A DNA stretch of 64,000 nucleotides from an uncultured Lentisphaerota bacterium (GTDB taxonomy: Bacteria > Verrucomicrobiota > Kiritimatiellia > CAIQIC01), in the NCBI GenBank assembly GCA_903889245.1, contig CAISWQ010000119.1, positions 1 to 64,000 on the forward strand, written 5' to 3'. The translations under genes and the position numbers were made by a program. The notes beneath the pieces are model-generated. The model saw only the letters and a list, made by a program, of their open reading frames with translations, did no database searches and was not told where the DNA came from. Below, piece by piece: positions 44-62,489 of the stretch (position 1 is its first letter; each line of letters starts with the position of its first letter).

Positions 44-84
44 CTGAACTTGGCCGCACCTCCACAACCAGAACGGCTGTGTCC

Positions 85-166
85 TTTTCCAAGGCTTGGA
101 AAAATTTCCGCGCGCTTTTCCAAGGCTTGGAAAAACCACCGTGTTCCTTTTCCAATCCTTGGAAAA
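85..166. repeat. Phased palindrome array A (3 copies)
   Basis: Three copies of the 19-bp palindrome TTTTCCAAGGCTTGGAAAA start at 85, 116 and 148. The first two are perfect and the third has a changed centre. Start-to-start spacing is 31 and 32 bp with unrelated 12-13 bp spacers. The array lies directly upstream of the amidohydrolase gene and could be read as an N-terminal extension of it. Confidence 0.9.
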
Positions 167-177
167 CTCTGCTGCCT

Positions 178-1503
178 GTGAAAACGAAAGGCGCTTTCAT
201 AATCCACAATCCGCAATCCACAATCCGCAATTTATGTCTCATCGCTCTGACCTTTCTTTGCCTCCTTGGGGTGGCATCATCCTCGCATGCTGGATTGACC
301 GACTGGCTCGGCGGTGATTTCCGTGGCGGGCCGGCAGAGGCGTTGAGCCCGGCGGCGAGCGCGCTCGTGGCGCGCGCGTTCGCGGATCTGGGCGACGCGC
401 CGCTGGTGGACTATCACGCGCACCTCGTCGGCACCGGCGCGGATGGGACCGGCGCGGCGATCAACGGCGCGAAGACCAGTTGGTGGCATCCGATTGAAAG
501 CACCAAGGCGCGCGTCTTCCTCTCGGCCTCCGGTGTGCAAAAGGAGGACCACTTCGATGCCGACTACCTGGCGCGCTTCGTCCAGCTCGCGCGCGGCTTC
601 CCGCGTCCGCTCAAAATCCATCTGCTCGCGCTCGACCACAACTACAACGACGATGGCACGATCAACACGGAGAAGACCGATTTCTATATGCCGAACGAGC
701 GCGTGGTGGCGGTGGCGCGGCAGTATCCCGGGCTGTTCGTGCCGGTGATCTCCGTGCATCCACACCGGCCCGACGCGCTGGCGGAACTGGACAAGTGGGC
801 GGCGCAGGGCGTACGGAACATCAAGTGGCTGCCGAACGCGCAGAACATTGACCCGGCGAATCCGCGCCACGACGCGTTCTATCGCAAGCTGCGCGAGCGG
901 CAAATGGTGCTGCTGGCGCACGTCGGCGCGGAGGGCGCGGTGGAGGCCGCCGGCGCGCAGGAGCTGGGCAATCCGCTGCGGCTGCGGCGCGCGCTAGAGG
1001 CGGGTGTGACGGTGATCATGGCGCACTGCGCGAGCCGCGGCCAGAGTGCGGACCTCGACCGGCCCGGCGCGCAGGCCGACAACTTCGAGCTGTTCCTGCG
1101 GATGATGGATGAGCCGCGCTACCGTGGGCAGCTTTTCGCCGACATCTCCGCGATGGCGCAGTGGAACCGGCTGCCGAAGCCGCTGCTGACCGTGTTGCAA
1201 CGGCCGGACCTGCAGGCGCGGCTGGTCAATGGCAGCGATTATCCGATGCCGGCGATCAACTGCACGATTTCGCTGCGCGCGCTCACGAAGCTCGGCGTGC
1301 TCGACGCTGCCGACCGCGCGCCGCTCAAGGAAATTTATCAGCGCAATCCGCTGCTCTTCGATTTCGTGCTCAAGCGTGTGGTCCACGAACCCAAGACCGG
1401 CGCGCGGCTGGCGCGGGAAATTTTTCTGCAAAAGCCGCAGCTAGCGGGCGCGCCCACCAGCGCCACCACACCACCGCTGGAACGAAAAGGAGACGGATCA
1501 TGA
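178..1503 (+). CDS. Exported amidohydrolase (TIM-barrel, amidohydrolase_2-like)
   Basis: A 441-residue putative metal-dependent hydrolase; the substrate is unknown. A hydrophobic segment at about residues 19-33 followed by SSSHAG looks like a signal peptide, so the enzyme is probably periplasmic. VDYHAH (His80 and His82) fits the HxH metal site that ends strand 1 of the amidohydrolase barrel. AHCASRG supplies a later His, and NGSDYPMP supplies the Asp expected on strand 8. The GTG at 178 is chosen because it gives MKTKGAF and a normal signal peptide. A GTG at 79 in the same frame would add 33 residues encoded by palindrome array A. No strong ribosome site supports either start. Residues 9-19 are encoded by a mini-tandem repeat (199-233). 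The stop overlaps the next start as ATGA (1500-1503), so the two genes are probably translationally coupled. The family is clear; substrate and start are not. Confidence 0.8.
   Translation: MKTKGAFIIHNPQSTIRNLCLIALTFLCLLGVASSSHAGLTDWLGGDFRGGPAEALSPAASALVARAFADLGDAPLVDYHAHLVGTGADGTGAAINGAKTSWWHPIESTKARVFLSASGVQKEDHFDADYLARFVQLARGFPRPLKIHLLALDHNYNDDGTINTEKTDFYMPNERVVAVARQYPGLFVPVISVHPHRPDALAELDKWAAQGVRNIKWLPNAQNIDPANPRHDAFYRKLRERQMVLLAHVGAEGAVEAAGAQELGNPLRLRRALEAGVTVIMAHCASRGQSADLDRPGAQADNFELFLRMMDEPRYRGQLFADISAMAQWNRLPKPLLTVLQRPDLQARLVNGSDYPMPAINCTISLRALTKLGVLDAADRAPLKEIYQRNPLLFDFVLKRVVHEPKTGARLAREIFLQKPQLAGAPTSATTPPLERKGDGS
199..233. repeat. Mini-tandem repeat, AATCC(A/G)CAATCC type
   Basis: Short tandem units of the AATCCACAATCCGCAATCC kind, lying in frame in the signal-peptide region of the amidohydrolase gene. 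The reverse complement (GATTGCGGATTGCGG) occurs inside the methyltransferase gene at 13486-13520. Confidence 0.7.
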
Positions 1504-4500
1504 AGACGATTTTCCAAGCCTTGGAAAAAAACGGCGCAAGTTTTCCAGGCCTCGGAACATTTCACGGCGAAACTTTCCAACCCTTGGAAAAATCACACTC
1601 GCCTCTTTCCAATCCCTGGAAAACGCTGCGGACTGGTGTGGGGTTGTTGTGCGCCGGGTCGGAGACCCGGCCTACAGGAAGCGAACATCCAACCTCGAAG
1701 GGGTGTAGGCCGGGTCTCCGACCCGGCGCGAGCATTGTACCCTTTGATTGGAGGGCCACGCTCCGTCGTGGCCGCCGTGGGCTTCCCGTTCGCAGGGTCG
1801 AAGCCGTGCGCGCCGCGGCCGGACCAAGCGGTGAGGCTGGCAGGTGGGCGGCGTGGTTTGGCTTGCTGTTGATCGTGCTCGCCACCGGCTGCGCGACGCC
1901 GGAGATGAAGGGCACGCCGTTCTACACCGGCGAATATGCCAGGCGCGTCGGGCCGGCGGAAGAGCGCGTGAACGCCTGGCCGCTGTTCTACTACCGCAAC
2001 CCGGCGCTCTCCGTGCTGTGGCCGATCTTCGAGCACACCGACACGCACCTGGCCGTGCGCCCCATTTACTCGGTCTATGGCACCGACCGCTCGAACCAGC
2101 AGTACAACGTACTCTGGCCGCTCGCGCAGTTTGACCGGCAGACGAAGGACTACCGCATCTTCCCGGTCTTCTGGGGCGGCGGCTTGCGGCCGACCGAAGA
2201 TTATCGCGCGGTCTTCCCACTCTACTGGCATCGCGGCCATCCGCTGGCGGACGAGGTGGGCGGACTTGATGCGCTGTTTCCATTCTGGAGCTTGAGCCGA
2301 TACGGCACGAACTCGTCGAGCTTCTATTGCCCGTGGCCGTTGGTGCGCGTGATGCACGAGGGCCAGAAGTCGGGCTGGCATGTCTTCCCGGTCGCCGGCA
2401 GTTATGGCGACGGCAACAAGTACTTCCGCTTTCAGGCGGCGTTCCTCGCTGACCAATGGGGCAATGAGCGGCAGGATCGGCACGGTTCGCTGGTGCTGCC
2501 GCTCTATTTTTTCGAGCGGCAGCAGGACGCTTGGAGTTTTTATTCCCTGCCGTGGTCGGGCGGACAGGCCGGCGACACGCGCTGGCAGTTCATCCTGCCG
2601 CTGCTGGGCTATCACCGCACCAACACAACGGGTTCGCTGACGCTCTCGCCGCTCTGGCTGCAAAGCCAGGCGGCCAATCCGGCGGAGGGCGGCTGGGCGG
2701 CGCTGCTGCCGCTGCTGTATTACGGCCACGGGGCGGAAGGCAGCACGACCCTCTCGCCGCTCTGGCTGGCGCATTCGGCCGCCGATCCACAGCAGAAATC
2801 ATGGCAGGCGTTGTTGCCGGTGTTCTTCCACAGTAGCAGCACGAATGCGGACCTGTTGCTCACGCCCTTGTGGTCGCAAGGTGCCAGCAGCAACGCCACC
2901 TGGCAGTGCCTGCTGCCGCTCTATTACGCGCGGCAGGAGGGCGCGGACAAATTCTGGGCGACGCCGCTGGGCGGAATGCGCACCGCCGACGGCCAGCAGT
3001 CATGGATGATCTACCCGCTCTTGAGCTGGGGCACGCCGCGCGCCGATGGCGGCGAGTTCTGGGCGCTCGCCCCGCTGATCCACGCCGACTGGAACGCGAG
3101 CAACGCGGTCAGCCACGCGTTCCCGTTCTACTACCATAACAGCGCCACGCGCACGTTCCTTTCGCCCGCTTGGGCGCGATGGACTGGCGAGGGCTGCACG
3201 AACTCAGTGGTACCCCCGTTGTTGTCATGGCTCTCGACGGACGCCGGGAGCAGCGACCTCTTCGTCGCGCTCGGCCTGGGCAAGTTCTGTTGGGGCCCGC
3301 AGTCCGGTTCGCAATGGCTGCTGCCGGTCTTTTTCCATGATCGGAAACAGCAGACGTTCCTTTCGCCGGTGTTCGCGCAATGGGGTGGCGACAGCAGCCG
3401 CAAGACCGTCATCCCGCCCTTACTCTCCTGGATGGATACGCAGCCGGAGCGCAGCGATTTCCACTTGGGCCTCTGCCTCGGTAATTTCAGTTCGGGGGCG
3501 CGGCCCGGCGCGCAGTGGCTCATCCCGTTCTTCTACCATGATCGCGCGGACCAGACGTTTCTCTCGCCGCTCTGGGCGCGGTGGCCGGCCTCCGGCGGCG
3601 GCACGAACACCTGCCTGCCGTTCACGCTCTCGTGGATGACCGAGGCGGAAAAGCGCAACGACTTCTGGCTGCTGTTCGGCCTCGGCAAGTTCAGTTGGGG
3701 CGAGCAGCCCGGCGCGTCGCACCTGCTTCCGTTCTACTATCACGATCCGCAGACGCGCGCGTTCTATTCCCTGATCTATGGCCGCAAGCCGGACGACTTC
3801 ACCTACTTTGCCACGCCGCTGGTGGGCCAGCGCGAGGGCCAGCAGGCCGGGAGCTGGTGCTTCCCGCTCTACTCGCACAAGCGCGACACGCGAACCGACG
3901 AGGTGGACGACTGGTATCTCTGGGCCAACCACTGGGAGCGCAACGGCGTCAGCCGCTCGGTGATGTTCCCGCTCTTCGGCTATCACAACTTCGGCCCGCG
4001 CGACGGCGCGCCCAAGGCGCATCAGCGGTGGGCGCATTTCGGCAAGGATTTCTTCTGCCTGCCGATCTGCTGGTATAAGAACGAAACCTTTGTGCGCCCG
4101 TCGCAGGAGGAAATCCGGCAGACCTATGCCGCGCGCAAGAACAAAACCCCACCGCCGCAGTTGCCGCTGGTGCGAGAGAACAAATACAGCCACGGTTGCT
4201 TCCCGCTGTGGAGCTATTCGAGTATGGAGCAGGAGGGCGCGCACCGCGCGAACGTGGATGGCTCCCTCCTGCTCTGGCTCTATGACTATACCCGCGCAGT
4301 GCAACCGCCCGCCCAGGCTGCGGCCGGCGCCAACGACTACACCCGCGCCCGCGTCCTCTGGCGGCTCTGGCACTATGAGCGGCTCAACGGCGAGGTCAGC
4401 GTGGATGTCTTCCCCGGCTTCACCTTTGACCGCAAGAACGATGGCTTCAAGAAGTTCTCCTGGCTCTGGCGGTTCTTCCGCTACGAGCGCGACAAGGATG

Positions 4501-4562
4501 GCGGCAAGAAGCTGGACTTGCTCTTCATTCCCTTGCTGCGGAGCGGGGGAAAAAGCAACTAA
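1500..4562 (+). CDS. Large repeat-built lipoprotein with a repeat-invaded N-terminus
   Basis: A 1020-residue protein of unknown function. The ATG at 1500 has a strong AAGGAG site and overlaps the previous stop, so it is probably the ancestral start. However, about 120 residues encoded by palindromes and hairpin repeats separate it from a normal lipoprotein signal (GLLLIVLATGC, Cys codon 1890-1892). A GTG at 1806 would place this Cys at residue 29 and may be the working start. The mature part is rich in Trp, Pro, Leu and Tyr. It repeats modules of about 35-40 residues ending in TLSPLW and three longer modules carrying G-K-F-x-W-G (nucleotides 3279, 3480 and 3684; period 67-68 residues), each followed by a WLLPFFYHD-type segment. 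This suggests a solenoid or propeller anchored in an outer or inner membrane. I do not recognise a named family. Confidence 0.72.
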   Translation: MKTIFQALEKNGASFPGLGTFHGETFQPLEKSHSPLSNPWKTLRTGVGLLCAGSETRPTGSEHPTSKGCRPGLRPGASIVPFDWRATLRRGRRGLPVRRVEAVRAAAGPSGEAGRWAAWFGLLLIVLATGCATPEMKGTPFYTGEYARRVGPAEERVNAWPLFYYRNPALSVLWPIFEHTDTHLAVRPIYSVYGTDRSNQQYNVLWPLAQFDRQTKDYRIFPVFWGGGLRPTEDYRAVFPLYWHRGHPLADEVGGLDALFPFWSLSRYGTNSSSFYCPWPLVRVMHEGQKSGWHVFPVAGSYGDGNKYFRFQAAFLADQWGNERQDRHGSLVLPLYFFERQQDAWSFYSLPWSGGQAGDTRWQFILPLLGYHRTNTTGSLTLSPLWLQSQAANPAEGGWAALLPLLYYGHGAEGSTTLSPLWLAHSAADPQQKSWQALLPVFFHSSSTNADLLLTPLWSQGASSNATWQCLLPLYYARQEGADKFWATPLGGMRTADGQQSWMIYPLLSWGTPRADGGEFWALAPLIHADWNASNAVSHAFPFYYHNSATRTFLSPAWARWTGEGCTNSVVPPLLSWLSTDAGSSDLFVALGLGKFCWGPQSGSQWLLPVFFHDRKQQTFLSPVFAQWGGDSSRKTVIPPLLSWMDTQPERSDFHLGLCLGNFSSGARPGAQWLIPFFYHDRADQTFLSPLWARWPASGGGTNTCLPFTLSWMTEAEKRNDFWLLFGLGKFSWGEQPGASHLLPFYYHDPQTRAFYSLIYGRKPDDFTYFATPLVGQREGQQAGSWCFPLYSHKRDTRTDEVDDWYLWANHWERNGVSRSVMFPLFGYHNFGPRDGAPKAHQRWAHFGKDFFCLPICWYKNETFVRPSQEEIRQTYAARKNKTPPPQLPLVRENKYSHGCFPLWSYSSMEQEGAHRANVDGSLLLWLYDYTRAVQPPAQAAAGANDYTRARVLWRLWHYERLNGEVSVDVFPGFTFDRKNDGFKKFSWLWRFFRYERDKDGGKKLDLLFIPLLRSGGKSN
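1510..1773. repeat. Palindrome array B plus two other hairpin families in the lipoprotein leader
   Basis: Four palindrome copies start at 1510, 1541, 1573 and 1605 (steps 31, 32, 32). They are followed by two GCCGGGTC hairpins in opposite orientation (1653-1675 and 1705-1727) and one GGAGGGCCACGCTCCGTCGTGG element (1750-1773). The whole block is open in the lipoprotein frame and lies between its SD/ATG and its signal peptide. Confidence 0.88.
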
Positions 4563-6535: not shown

Positions 6536-6661
6536 CTGTAGCGGCGCGCTATGCGCGCCGATTCTGGCTTTCTTTCGGCGGCCATAGGCCGCCGCTACAG
6601 CGCGGAAAGAAACAACCCTTGGCATTATTCGAGACGTGGAGGGCCACGCTCCGTCGTGGCC
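6536..6661. repeat. CTGTAGCGGC long-arm hairpin and GGAGGGCC element
   Basis: CTGTAGCGGC (6536-6545) is perfectly complementary to GCCGCTACAG (6591-6600), with an inner GGCGCGC hairpin. Related elements lie at 33766-33816 and 44446-44496. A GGAGGGCCACGCTCCGTCGTGG element follows at 6638-6661; other copies are at 1750-1773 and, inverted, at 59775-59798. Confidence 0.8.
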
Positions 6662-38038: not shown

Positions 38039-39115
38039 TCACCGCTGATAGATCGGCATGAAGTGGTAGCGGACCGAGAGCGAGAGGAGCGCGAGCGAGG
38101 TGCTGTAAACCTTGGAGACGGTTTCCTGGTCGCGGCCGACCCACGAGCCGTCGTCCTGCTGCATTTCGAGCATGATCTTCTCGACGGCCTCGCGTGCCTT
38201 CTCTGCGTCCTCGCCGCCGCGTTGGTACATGCCCTGCGCATAATAGTAGGTCCCGTAGAAGAAGAAGCGCGTCTCGCGCTTGAGCGGTTGCTCGTGCAGC
38301 CACGCGACCGTGCCAGTGAGTTCCTCGGCGCTATAGTCGCCGCAGACTTGCAGCGCGAGCAGGCCTTCCGACGCGGTGGAGAAGGTCGGGCCGTGGTCGG
38401 GTTCGTAGGCGAAGGCGCTCTTGAGGTTGGTGAGGCGGCCGCTCCTGCGGTTGCCGCCGTGGTAGCTGCGCTTGATGTAAGCGATCGCGGCGTCAATCGT
38501 GTCCTTCGGCACGTTCAGCCCGGAATTTTTGGCCGCGCGCAGCGCCATCACCTGCCAGACGGTGACGGAGAGGTCGGCGTCGTTCGCGTCGGGCGTATAG
38601 CGCCAGCCGCCCTCGTACTTCGGATTGTGCTTGCGGACCTTTTGCGAGCGCACGATCAGGTCAATCGCCTTCTGGCAGCGGTCGCGGATCAGCGCGTCCT
38701 GCCGGCTATCCACGCCCATGCCGAGCAATTCCGCGAGCATGAGCGTGACGATGCCGTGGCCGTACATGCGCGAGCCGTCATATTTCCCGAAGTAGCCGGT
38801 CGCGTCCTGCCGCTCCGGCGCGAGGATGTAGTCCAAGCCCTTGCGCAGCGCGCGGCCTTCCGCGGTGTCGTCGGTCGCCTGATGCCCGACCGAGGCCAGT
38901 GCGAGCAGCGCCAGGCCGGTCATCACGGTCGCGTTGTCCTTGCTCTTCCGGTCTATCTTGCCGATCGCGCCATCGTCATCCTGTCGCGTCAACAGAAAGT
39001 TGATGCCACGCGCCACGGCGCGGTCCACCGCCGAGGTCGCGTTGAGGCCCGGCCCCGCGGCGCGGGCGGAAAGCAGGCACACTGTCAAAAAAACAAAGGC
39101 GACGGCTTTGAACAT
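38039..39115 (-). CDS. Exported prenyltransferase/squalene-cyclase repeat protein
   Basis: A 358-residue protein with signal peptide (FKAVAFVFLTVCLLSARA) and the alpha/alpha-barrel repeats of the terpene-cyclase fold (GINFLLTRQDDDGAIG, YEGGWRYTPDANDADLSVT, MQQDDGSWVGRDQETVSKVY). The Asp-rich cyclase motif is not complete, so it may be a scaffold, not a cyclase. Such proteins are very common in PVC bacteria beside MoxR and VWA genes, as here. The ATG at 39115 is chosen for the signal peptide; an ATG at 39148 would lengthen the N-terminus by 11 residues. Confidence 0.82.
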   Translation of the reverse strand: MFKAVAFVFLTVCLLSARAAGPGLNATSAVDRAVARGINFLLTRQDDDGAIGKIDRKSKDNATVMTGLALLALASVGHQATDDTAEGRALRKGLDYILAPERQDATGYFGKYDGSRMYGHGIVTLMLAELLGMGVDSRQDALIRDRCQKAIDLIVRSQKVRKHNPKYEGGWRYTPDANDADLSVTVWQVMALRAAKNSGLNVPKDTIDAAIAYIKRSYHGGNRRSGRLTNLKSAFAYEPDHGPTFSTASEGLLALQVCGDYSAEELTGTVAWLHEQPLKRETRFFFYGTYYYAQGMYQRGGEDAEKAREAVEKIMLEMQQDDGSWVGRDQETVSKVYSTSLALLSLSVRYHFMPIYQR

Positions 39116-39159
39116 CGAACGCCGACCCCCCGGCCGTTGATCTCCCATGCGCGCCGGAA

Positions 39160-39393
39160 TCTTCCAAGGATGGGAAACCGGCACCGCTGTTTTTTCCAAG
39201 CCTTGGAAAAATCCCGTGGAAATTTTCCAAGGCTTGGAAACGCGCCACGGGAGGGCGAGCGTACTCGCGAGCCGGAAACCGAGCGGACGGCTCGCCGGTA
39301 GGCTCGCCCTCCCCAAGGAGCCTATGAACATCGCACGCCGCACCACACTCCTTCGATGTTGGATGTTGGCTGTTGGGTGTTCGATGTTTCCGG
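39160..39393. repeat. Composite repeat H: palindrome array, long hairpin, mini-tandem
   Basis: Palindromes start at 39160, 39192 and 39223 (steps 32 and 31). GGGAGGGCGAGCG...CGCTCGCCCTCCC-type arms follow at 39249-39313 with a few mismatches. The end is a GATGTTGGATGTTGG-type mini-tandem (about 39353-39393). The first two parts match the block at 44585-44738 in the same order and orientation. Confidence 0.85.
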
Positions 39394-39399
39394 CCTGCT

Positions 39400-42300
39400 T
39401 CATGGCTGCTTCTCCCGCGCTTTATCCGCGACGGCGCGGAAATAGACCTCGACCATCTCGCGGTACTCGCCGCCCGCGCCCTCGCGCCGCGCCTCGAGCA
39501 GGTCGCGCGCGAGCTTCGGCGGCAGCTTGCCCCAGACGCCGTTGAGCCGCGTCGCCGCATCCGGCAGCTTACCGGCCTCGAGGTTGCCGCCGACCAGCGC
39601 CGCGCCGCCACCCTTGCTCTCGGCCTGCGAAAGCGGCTGCTGGCCCGGCGTCAGGTTCTCGCTGCGCGCGCTGGCCATGCTTTGCGCTTGCGCCTGCGCG
39701 GCCGCGGCCATCGCCTGCGCGGCGGCGCTCTGCGCGGGCGTGGGCTGACCGGGCTGACCTTGCGCGGCCTCGCCGGGGCTGGGCTGCGCGCTGCCGGGCG
39801 GTGGGTGCAGCGCGGCATCGAGGCTATCGAGCGTTCGCGCCATCCACTGCGCCGTCTCCGGCGAGGCACCCGCCAGCGGACTGGGCGCGGCCGGCGCGGC
39901 GGGACTCGCCGGCGCGGGGGGCTGCTGCATCATCGCGTTGAGTTTATCGAGCGGCTGCTGGATCGCGTCGTGCGCGCCCTGCGCCGCCGCGGCGGACTGC
40001 GCCGGCGCGGGCGATTGGGCCATCGCCTGCTGCGCCTGCCCGATTTGCGCCGCGGTCTGCTGCTCCAGTTGCTGGCCAAGCTGTTGCATCTGCTGGCCGG
40101 CATCGTTCTGGCCAAGCCGTTCCTCGTGGCGGCCGGCGCGCTCCAACTCGTTACCGGTCTGCTGCACCGACTGTTGGATTTCCGGTTGCTGCGCCGCGGC
40201 GTTCTGCGTCTGTGCGCGCGCCTGCATCAACTGCTGCGCGAGGCTGCCCGCCTGCTGCGCCAGTTGTTGCGCCTGCTGGCCGGCCTGGTTGGCGTGCTGC
40301 TGCGCGGCCTTCGGGTCGCCGTTCTGCTGCGGCTGCTGCCCCAGCTTTTGCCCCGCCTCCTGCAACGCCTTCGCCGCCTGCTGTAATGGCGCGACCTGGT
40401 CGGCCATCTGCTGCGCGAGCTGCTCCGGTGGCTTGGAGAAATCCTGCGGGACGTTTTGCGCCACCGCGTTCAGCTTCTGCCCGGCGTTGTCGAGGTCGGG
40501 CTTACTGGGCGCGGCTTGCTGGCCTGCCTGCTGCGCAATCGCCGGCACTTCCTGCTGTGCGATCCGTTTGGCCTCGGCGGCGATCCGCTGCGCCTGCTCG
40601 GCGGGCGAGCCGAGCTGCTGCGCCATCTGCTGCTCGCGCGCGGCGTTCTTCTGCAGGTTGGCGGCGGCCTCGCTCATCGTGTCCTTGGCGATGTCGCTCA
40701 ACTCGTGCTGCATCGGCTTGCTCTCCGGCAGCGCCTGCTCCAGCGCCTTGAGCTGCTGCTCCGGCGACATCTGACCGAGGGCCGCGAGCGTCTGCGCCTT
40801 CTGGTATTCGCCGTCGAGGGTCGCCTTCAGCCCGGCGTCCTTCTCCATGGCGCGCAGCGCCTCGCGCGTTTTATCGGGCTGGCCGTCTTCGAGATTCTTG
40901 TAGTGCTCGGCGAGCGCGGCGAGCGTGTTGGCCAGCTTGTGCTGCTGCTCCTCCGCACCCTTGAGCGCGTCCTTTTGCCCCTGCGGCTGCATCGTGTTCG
41001 CCGCCTTCTGGAGCAGGTCGTTCGCGCTGGGCGTCGGCTGGCGCAGCATCGCGCTGGCGTCATCGGCGTCGCGCGCCCGCTCGCGGCCCTCCTCCTTGGC
41101 GAGGTCCTGCTTGTTCGCGTCGCGCCGCAGCGCCGCGCGCACGTCGTCCACGCGCTGGTCGAGCTGCTGCTGGCCGTTGGCCAGTTGCGCGGCCTCGTCG
41201 CGGACCTTCGCGGCGTTATCCGGCTGCGCCGCCTCCTTGGCCTGCGCGCCGGTCGCGTCCTTCATCTGCTTGGCGTGCTTTGCCGCCGCGGCGAGTTGCG
41301 CGCTGATCGGCGGCGCGAGCTTCTCGAGCTCGGCCCGCGCAGCCTCCATCTCCGGCTTGAGCTGCTGCTTGATCTGCGCGACATCGTTGGCCAGCCGGTT
41401 CAGCGGCTCGGCCGCGTTCCGCGTACTCGCCGGATTGTTCACCCGGTCGTGCAGCGCATCATTGACCTTGTGGGCCGGATCACTGTGCGGCAGCTTCTGC
41501 ACCTCCTGCGTTAGCGGCGGCGGCAGTTGCGCGCCCACCATTTTCTCCGGCAGCGCCTCCATCTGCTGTTTGGTCCACTTCCATTCCTGCTCGCGCTGCT
41601 GGCTGGCGGCGGGCGTCTTCGCCTTGTCCCAGCGCTCCTGCGCGGAGAGCTCGCGCAACGCCGGCTCGGTCTGCGCCACCTTGTGGCCGGTATCGAGTTT
41701 GCGGAGGGCCTTTTCCAGTCCGCGCACCGCGTCGAGCGCGTTTGTCGGCTGCTGGTCGTGCACGGCGCGCAGCGCGTCGAGCGCGTCGGCCGCGCGCGCG
41801 GCGTCGCTGGCGAACTGCGCGTCGGCCTGCGGCTTGTGTTCCTCGATCGCGGCGCGGTCCTTGAGCTCGTTGACCGCCGCCTTCCACGCCTCCGGTTGCG
41901 TCGGCTGGTCGCGGCGCTCGATCTGCCGCTTGAGCATGGCGACCGCCTCGGCGGCCTGATCGCCGGTGCTCTGGAGCCACTTGCGCGCGTTCTCCGCGCG
42001 CTGCTCCAGCTCGCGCGCCGCGTTGTGCATCGCGCTGGCGGTACGCGCCACCTGCTCCTGCAACCGGTCGGCCTGGGGCTTGAGCGTCTCGAGATTCGGC
42101 GTGGCGGCGAGCGCGTTCTCCAGGTTCTCGCGGTTGCGCTTCAGCTCGCGCTCCTGCGCCTTGGCCGACTCCGCCGGCCAGCCCCACGTATCCTCGCCCA
42201 ACTGCTTCATCTGTTTCTCGACCTGCTTGAGCTCGTCGGCCGCGACGCTCAACCGCCGCGTGGTCCGCTCGGCCTGCAGCGGGTCGTTGGGCAGCGCGCG

Positions 42301-61900: not shown

Positions 61901-62489
61901 AGACGATGCGCGGCGCCTGCCGGAGCACCGTCTTGATACGCGCCGCGCGACGCTGCTCGCAGACCTTGATATAGAGTTCCAGCCACTGCGGGTCGTTGCG
62001 CGGCGGATTCTTCGTGAACAGCGCCTCGACCTCCTTGCGTAGCGGCGACGAGTTCCCTAGTTCCTCCAGCGCCTCTTTGAACAGTTCCTGCTCGACGATG
62101 CGTGCACCCTCAAGGTTGAACCATTCCACGCGATTGGTACTCAAGTCCTGCAGCATCCAGTCGCTTTCCAGCGGGAAGTCGCGCTCCAGTTTTTCCCAGA
62201 CCTTGGCGGCGGCGTCGCGCCCGGCGTTGGCCTTGAGCAGCGCCTCGCGCGTGGCGAGCATCGTCGCGGCCCATGTCTCGCGCTTCTCGTAGTTCGCCGG
62301 GGCCTCCACATAGCTGTAGGCCGAGGAACCCGCGCGTGGTTTGACGGGTTTTTCCTTCGCCCCCGTCAGGCCGGCCATCAGCAACACGGCCGCCAGCAGA
62401 AGTTTTCCAAGGATTGGAAAAGCAGGGCGGTGTTTTTTCCAAGGCTTGGAAAAGTTGATGGCAAGGGTGGGGGACAGTGATTTTTTCAT
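58908..62489 (-). CDS. Giant diheme cytochrome c protein, hydrazine-synthase-alpha-like, with F5/8-type tail
   Basis: A 1193-residue exported protein. The signal peptide hydrophobic core (LLLAAVLLMAGLTG) follows an N-region encoded by two palindromes. Residues of about 200-560 form propeller-like repeats (DDDGVIRDPNVSWDGQRILF, YLPDGDIVFTSTRP). CVGCH (about 668) and CIKCH (about 713) bind two c-type hemes. The C-terminal 150 residues resemble an F5/8 type C (discoidin) carbohydrate-binding domain. This layout matches the PVC family resembling hydrazine synthase alpha; nothing else suggests hydrazine chemistry. Palindrome, GGAGGGCC and GTGGGCGGGG elements lie in frame at 60382, 59775 and 59731. 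A C12 tract (59582-59593) could cause slippage. Confidence 0.82.
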   Translation of the reverse strand: MKKSLSPTLAINFSKPWKKHRPAFPILGKLLLAAVLLMAGLTGAKEKPVKPRAGSSAYSYVEAPANYEKRETWAATMLATREALLKANAGRDAAAKVWEKLERDFPLESDWMLQDLSTNRVEWFNLEGARIVEQELFKEALEELGNSSPLRKEVEALFTKNPPRNDPQWLELYIKVCEQRRAARIKTVLRQAPRIVFTKHFNMGGSHYAYTEGQSDAQHERNFFPGAELCLLECKGGRAVVTTLIEDDDGVIRDPNVSWDGQRILFAWKKSNWLDDYHLYEMDVATRAVRQLTFGLGCADYEGAYLPDGDIVFTSTRPVQTVDCFNTEVSNLYTCDPLGRYLRRLCFDQVHVNYPQVLDDGRVTYTRWEYQDRGQVFVQSLFQMNPDGTGQTEFYGNNSWFPTSLLHARGIPGTRKVAAIASGHHSSQAGKLVIVDPDKGRQENSGVQLIAPVRETAAVKVDAYGQSGPLWMYPYPLNEQEFLVTYAPQGRAQPHDRFTGHFGIFWMDADGRRELLADDPGISCSQAVPLIARTPPRLRPSMVDYRKATGTYYMQNVYEGPGLAGVPPGAAKALRVVAIDFRAAIIGENHNGGEAGGALISTPPSIGNGAWDPKRVLGTAPIHPDGSAMFAVPARTPVYFQVLDASNHVIQTMRSWSTLQPGETFACVGCHENKNAAPPAGWNKSAAYAAGAQPLQSFQGLETRGFSFPKDVQPILDAHCIKCHDGGATGRGEKLPDLTGQPVVDTFAKRTWTASYITLTHAKLEERNKQPGPPYRGYTNALVNWVHAQSAPPMLPPYACGSAQSGLLGLLERGHGQTKLSRAELDRLACWMDLAVPFCGDYTEAHAWTEAEQARYAHFMAKRSALAAVDARNIGAFLAAKKTPLRVGLPDPAPSLVGGPRSVVAASPAGGNAGLETPPTISIVLLDAGGKKLAAQTGAATASQPLTLEVKREFQPGDRIRITAGTPPPLFAVNLDPALGEAILCITNGVFEFAIPDPKRRVYPPAAFTGSARKFSVRPLAPAELDGYRNLARNPYDLHDATAAFPHATSTNEYHHMAQFEARCAIDGFCDNRKHGLWPFQSWGPEKTGDMTWRLDFGRVVQLDKVVITLRADFPHDHVWTKGELVFSDGHKVRVDFQHTAEPQTFHLPRHVKTDSIRLEKLKQDDPPGWCAITEFEAWGRDPLPIPAGAAAP
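59582..59593. repeat. 12-base G/C homopolymer inside a coding region
   Basis: Twelve G on the plus strand, read as C12 (T-P-P-P-L) in the large cytochrome gene. The frame is open at 12; a change of one base would shift the last 220 codons or so. Confidence 0.9.
59731..59798. repeat. Two hairpin-family elements inside the large cytochrome gene
   Basis: GTGGGCGGGGTTTCCAACCC (59731-59753) and the inverted GGAGGGCCACGCTCC element (59775-59798) lie in frame, encoding VGGPRSVVAAS and GLETPPTI. Other copies of both elements are intergenic. Confidence 0.85.
60382..60400. repeat. Single in-frame palindrome in the large cytochrome gene
   Basis: GTTTCCAAGCCTTGGAAAC is a perfect palindrome encoding SFQGLET between the two heme motifs. 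Confidence 0.85.
62403..62453. repeat. Palindrome pair encoding a signal-peptide N-region (array N)
   Basis: Copies start at 62403 and 62435 (32 bp apart) and encode FSKPWKK and FPILGK just before the hydrophobic core of the signal peptide of the large cytochrome protein. Confidence 0.9.

Follow-up and report, generated by a model that had tools for sequence, protein, structure and literature searches.

The repeat block described here separates the start codon from the signal peptide of a lipoprotein gene in an uncultured Lentisphaerota bacterium of the Kiritimatiellae (GenBank assembly GCA_903889245.1). The window is the 64,000-nucleotide stretch at positions 1 to 64,000 of contig CAISWQ010000119.1, and the source genome, G000, is a 5.26 Mb draft. 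The block consists of two layers, an array of helically phased palindromes followed by repetitive extragenic palindromic (REP) hairpins. Taking all observations together, we consider it probable that this two-layered block is translated from the ATG at 1500 as an N-terminal leader. The block keeps its position behind the start codon in related species but differs step-wise in length among them, and its palindromes belong to arrays that occur throughout the genome.

The Shine-Dalgarno (SD) sequence AAGGAG (1487–1492, + strand) precedes the ATG (1500–1502, +), which forms an ATGA overlap with the TGA stop (1501–1503) of the upstream coupled gene (295–1503, +). The latter is amidohydrolase-like by reading only. 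The open reading frame (ORF; 1500–4562, +) encodes 1020 amino acids from ATG1500 or 918 from an alternative in-frame GTG (1806–1808, +), which has a weak AGGG alone upstream and would give a 29-residue signal peptide. The hydrophobic core and lipobox LATGC lie at 1845–1892 (+), and the lipobox is conserved at the same place in the orthologs. The lipobox Cys (codon 1890–1892) is codon 131, which is 130 codons from ATG1500 without an intervening stop, or 28 from GTG1806. A sequence-only reading of the window had described this coupled start, its AAGGAG and the distant Cys, and the description held base by base. Pfam and NCBIfam gave no match for the lipoprotein ORF nor for the upstream gene, and an Rfam scan of the window detected one tRNA and nothing else.

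The first layer is an array of four helically phased palindromes TTTCCAANNNTTGGAAA (1511–1622), with units at 1511–1527, 1542–1558, 1574–1590, and 1606–1622. These showed 0, 3, 0, and 1 mismatches, respectively, and spacings of 31, 32, and 32. In the window, 32 matches to the palindrome were found at two or fewer mismatches, compared with 0.06 expected. The second layer begins with a hairpin GCCGGGTC...GACCCGGC present in two opposed copies, one reverse (1651–1676, −) and one forward (1704–1729, +), complementary at 26 of 26 positions and folding as a pair to about −68 kcal/mol. A REP-like GGAGGGCC hairpin element (GGAGGGCCACGCTCCGTCGTGGCC; 1750–1773, +) follows, with further copies at 6638 and 59775. 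Both the GTAG-tagged and the GGAGGGCC repeats occurred far above chance frequency. The same inventory of four phased palindromes, two opposed hairpins and one GGAGGGCC element, all open in frame, had been listed from the letters alone, and we recovered it in full.

Both opposed hairpins are palindromes of 20–40 bp with GTAG at one end (GTAGGCCGGGTCTCCGACCCGGC), and in a 460 kb sample of G000 this family was dispersed as 8 exact full-length copies and about 13 hairpin cores. A cognate REP-associated tyrosine transposase (RAYT) gene lies between such repeats, with GTAG copies on both sides and a match to NF047646 of 89.2 bits (cut-off 80). This resembles the GTAG REPs and REPtrons described with RAYT (PMC3733652) in the tag, in the flanked transposase and in the opposed pair, which recalls REP dimers. 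Unlike those, the two copies here lie within an ORF, between start codon and signal peptide. The two GTAG REPs of the leader are thus ordinary RAYT-associated elements, presumably mobile. The RAYT-like transposase genes are located at L057 1281–1778, flanked by the GTAG REPs, and at L056 1372–1872, flanked by a different repeat, GGAACGCGACCTCCGGGCGCG.

The pair of upstream gene and lipoprotein gene was also found, in the same order, in G002 and G003 of the same genus and in G004 of a sister genus. All compared genomes are drafts, and G004 and G005 are incomplete assemblies. In all four species, which span two genera, the first palindrome stands 11–12 nt past the A of the ATG, together with the ATGA overlap. 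SD-like sites were AAGGAG in G004, GGGGAGG in G003, and weaker AAGG/AGG in G002. Each species carries one to four palindrome units and then differing REPs: the opposed GTAG pair and GGAGGGCC in G000, a GGCGGGG...CCCCGC pair in G003, and GTAG-type and GGAGCGCGGGC elements in G004. From ATG to Cys the leader runs in frame for 130 codons in G000, 56 in G002, and 70 in G003. The distant orthologs G030, G044, G049, and G052 showed an ordinary signal peptide right at the start, with a short n-region and no palindromes. Orthologs with a signal peptide directly after the start, proposed earlier as a check, therefore exist as outgroups, and the block was not conserved as protein sequence in the relatives, which carry different REPs.

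A second gene of the same build was observed near the end of the window (62404–62489, −). Its ATG lies at 62489, with palindrome units in frame at offsets 37 and 69, and its N-terminus (MKKSLSPTLAINFSKPWKKHRPAFPILGKLLLAAVLLMAGLTGA) has an n-region encoded by two palindromes. In G002 and G003 the units occupied identical offsets, gap-free and in frame, and in none of G000, G002, and G003 was a plausible later start found. The counterpart in G005 (sister genus) has its hydrophobic core directly after MKQNPPG. With this conservation, it becomes credible that such blocks are translated in signal-peptide genes generally.

These comparisons favor ATG1500 as the most likely start, which we regard as probable from sequence evidence, with GTG1806 as the chief alternative. 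Several observations weigh against translation from ATG1500. G002 has a weak SD-like site. In G004 the ATG and the lipobox stand in different frames, and no good alternative start is present; this could reflect decay or an error of the metagenome-assembled genome. The coding score stayed below zero from 1500 up to about 1860, after which it was strongly positive. An in-frame GTG or TTG occurs about 30 codons before the Cys in every species that kept the frame, at about chance level. A leader of 130 residues would be a load on export and translation, as would the hairpin pair at about −68 kcal/mol. An open frame of the block length is expected from base composition alone with P of about 0.02, but across the block one of the two remaining frames is interrupted by only one stop, so the openness of the ATG1500 frame is weak evidence by itself.

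The alternative is that the array and REPs cut off the old ATG, that GTG1806 now works with a 29-residue signal peptide, and that the ATG1500 frame is a relic. Such a takeover would restore a signal-peptide length as normal as in the outgroups, and it agrees with the negative coding score before about 1860, with the broken old frame of G004, and with the fact that genes downstream of other arrays usually start past the array. We nevertheless judge it rather unlikely. The SD-like site and ATG were kept in four species, where the upstream gene has no need of them, the later in-frame GTG/TTG codons of G002 and G003 lack an SD, and the 62489 junction keeps its array in frame without a plausible later start. 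The sequence-only reading had left a long N-terminus and a takeover by GTG1806 side by side; both can be entertained, and the retention of SD-like site and ATG in four species makes the takeover the less likely of the two.

In the arrangement that we propose, and that the block is probably translated under, the first layer would be a phased palindrome array, ancestral in the family and drawn from genome-wide sites of protein-binding-like character that favor the place just after a stop codon. At this locus the upstream stop and the lipoprotein start overlap (ATGA), so that an array behind the one also lies directly behind the other, within the n-region. The second layer would be lineage-specific REP hairpins of RAYT type that lodged downstream of the array, gathered in the same tolerant stretch and lengthened the leader. 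Start and signal peptide would in this way have been pushed apart step-wise with the frame remaining open, as the leader differing in steps across species suggests. Ribosomes most probably still initiate at the coupled SD and ATG1500 and translate the whole block, the 130-residue leader being removed with the signal peptide, and GTG1806 may act as a secondary start. We infer the use of ATG1500 and, likewise, the binding of the arrays by a protein. Serial insertion right behind the start codon, as suggested earlier, may hold for the REPs, which differ by lineage. It does not hold for the palindrome array, a genus-wide element that favors positions immediately after stop codons and was no recent chance insertion.

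The palindrome family itself is abundant. G000 contained 1,010 exact unit copies compared with 0 for the reversed pattern used as control; G001, G002, and G003, all of the same genus, contained 712, 507, and 162, respectively, and G004 and G005 of the sister genus 5 and 1. Class-wide, 56 of 146 genomes had at least one exact unit, with a highest count of 1,108. The named array-bearing genomes are labelled mostly Kiritimatiellae, and some Lentisphaerae, Verrucomicrobia or Spartobacteria. The family is apparently undescribed, as searches within a set of open-access papers, with the exact sequence and for Kiritimatiella palindromes, gave no earlier report. An exact phased palindrome pair was present in 2 of 2.9 million viral contigs. 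The two contigs (L240 3459–3506 and L241 10588–10635) are possible viruses or Kiritimatiellae host stretches.

Array statistics were obtained from samples of G000 (460 kb) and G001 (279 kb). Genes were called with a simple purpose-written gene finder, so that stop positions are firm and starts less so, and the array definition varied slightly between analyses (88 vs. 86 arrays) with the same result. Neighboring units in the G000 sample were spaced by 31 bp (82 cases) or 32 bp (56), with minor classes at 42 (6), 20, 52, and 63. The resultant at 10.5 bp was 0.94 (n = 154) and remained 0.85 after removal of the 30–33 class (n = 14). Spacers between units were near background composition, so units keep whole-turn spacing whatever the spacer sequence. 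Such spacing marks sites on one helix face rather than copied repeats. Tandem duplication was ruled out as the origin of the arrays, since the spacers are not conserved. Other genomes of the class showed the 31–32 bp spacing, some of them 22 or 20 bp, with different centers. An eight-unit array at L053 14647–14946 lies between divergent genes in a gap of 1.2 kb; six of its steps in a row measure 42 bp, or four helical turns, and it is the source of most of the 42-bp spacings.

About four-fifths of the arrays lie in gaps, which make up 9% of the DNA. Within these gaps, 32 of 74 arrays in G000 and 41 of 72 in G001 had an edge no more than 10 nt from a stop codon, where random placement in the same gaps predicts 16.3 and 25.6, respectively; start codons showed no such excess in either genome. 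Small samples of genomes from outside the genus did not reproduce the stop-codon preference, except weakly in one. Convergent gaps carried arrays more often than divergent gaps, both in G000 (12 of 25 vs. 7 of 35) and in G001 (8 of 13 vs. 7 of 28). The arrays were also spaced more evenly than expected. The coefficient of variation of inter-array distance was 0.63 in G000 (mean 5.3 kb) and 0.61 in G001 (mean 3.2 kb), compared with 0.84 (P 0.001) and 0.87 (P below 1 in 2000) for random gap choice; arrays in G007 and G009 were too few to judge. Among related genera the density varied from an array every 3 kb to one every 22–26 kb or none.

Three other readings fitted these data poorly. General translation of arrays from upstream starts was ruled out, because the three frames were open equally often (28, 36, and 32 of 61); a strong in-frame SD start ahead of the array was found in 1 of the 61 genes, which is the lipoprotein gene described here. 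A promoter role is unlikely, as divergent gaps were the poorest class among gaps of at least 80 bp. As for intrinsic terminators, a scan of the first 20 kb was not above shuffles, and the units fold weakly.

Inside genes, the arrays of the amidohydrolase gene (amh) and prmC of G000 aligned without gaps to relatives that have no arrays, and a thiD-like gene gave the same gap-free pattern across G000, G001, and G002. In pabB the units are located at a variable loop. In prmC (L055 5393–6241), both G000 and G001 have the second unit, GTTCCAGACCTTGGAAC, in the motif region, where it encodes VPDLGT; the corresponding residues in relatives are VSDLGT or VADLGA. From the gap-free alignments it follows that the sites arise by substitution and are then kept. 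The TTTCCAANNNTTGGAAA units accordingly lack the mark of REPs or miniature inverted-repeat transposable elements (MITEs), which spread by insertion of a conserved unit, as spacers are background-like and the in-gene origin is free of indels. With no tag, no mobility seen and helical spacing, the TTTCCAA palindromes are not REPs. Rickettsia palindromic elements (RPEs) are likewise palindromic repeats read in frame in proteins (PMC10969869). RPEs are, however, mobile insertions of about 150 bp (PMC10969869), whereas the palindromes here arise in genes by substitution: no insertion was seen at the amh and prmC arrays, nor any 150-bp unit.

This pattern probably fits protein-binding sites, serving chromosome organisation or DNA uptake, which are the two best-fitting functions for the arrays. 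Sites of a nucleoid-organising protein, bound cooperatively on one helix face every few kilobases, would account for the strict helical phasing with free spacers, the even spacing, the occurrence both within genes and between them, and the restriction to chromosomes (2 of 2.9 million viral contigs). ParB-parS, Noc-NBS, and MatP-matS similarly place palindromic sites across the chromosome, but these number tens, with neighbors not helically phased, compared with the roughly thousand phased sites here. Array density, moreover, varies widely among related genera, and no candidate was found. A ParB/Noc-like paralog was ruled out as the differential factor, since ParB copy number does not differ. 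That no binding protein was found also weighs against the wider scheme, and we hold a nucleoid-organising role to be possible but doubtful. Uptake signal sequences (USS) and DNA uptake sequences (DUS) of Pasteurellaceae and Neisseriaceae reach high copy, lie in genes and gaps, and have lineage-specific variants. The arrays could resemble them if the preference of an uptake receptor, combined with transformation by relatives' DNA, produced high copy, even spacing and in-gene substitution; about 1,000 copies, over-even spacing, substitution within genes and variants of the center all match. USS and DUS number from hundreds to thousands (PMC2346458). They are single oriented motifs of about 9–12 bp, where the arrays here are phased and multi-unit; known uptake sequences are short and are not helically phased palindrome arrays. 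In family f1, ComEC was detected in G000, G001, and G002 (1010, 712, and 507 copies of the palindrome) and not in G003, G004, and G005, whose palindromes are few or decayed (162, 5, and 1). This link is only a lead, from six genomes, two of them (G004, G005) incomplete. Across the class, ComEC is present in 139 of 146 genomes, most without arrays, and so explains little. An uptake role of the arrays is, on balance, unlikely.

A role on mRNA, in ribosome stalling or at transcript ends, would make the arrays REP-like stop-proximal elements. In E. coli, ribosomes stall at REPs that lie no more than 15 nt from a stop codon (PMC12306157), arrays here lie within 15 nt of stops, and they favor convergent over divergent gaps. 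Single units, however, fold to −6 to −9 kcal/mol, arrays occur deep inside genes, and helical phasing is meaningless for RNA, which leaves this role improbable. Our confidence in the start codon and in the function of the arrays answers different questions, and the two need not sum to one.

In a wider reading, Kiritimatiellae would possess a genome-wide recognition system of up to about 1,000 even, phased arrays, read by a putative protein for chromosome organisation or forming a further DNA-uptake sequence, and strong enough to reshape coding sequences as well as signal peptides, with the leader seen here as its by-product. We advance it tentatively, as slightly less than an even prospect. 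The leader is a clean test case of the n-region length tolerated by a lipoprotein signal peptide, and the palindrome family suggests that this little-studied class of bacteria has a DNA-binding protein with wide reach. Should the arrays be uptake sequences, the evolution of uptake specificity would become testable beyond the two families known for it.

Other junctions in the window combine arrays with gene starts. A three-unit array (86–165) lies ahead of the upstream gene's signal peptide; it lies together with AATCCACAATCCGC repeats in the stretch 79–300 (+), where relatives carry other repeats. On the minus strand, at 39115–39403, an ATG at 39403 overlaps an upstream stop (ATGA); a different repeat family (NIEHPTANIQH) and a three-unit array come between it and the apparent gene body.

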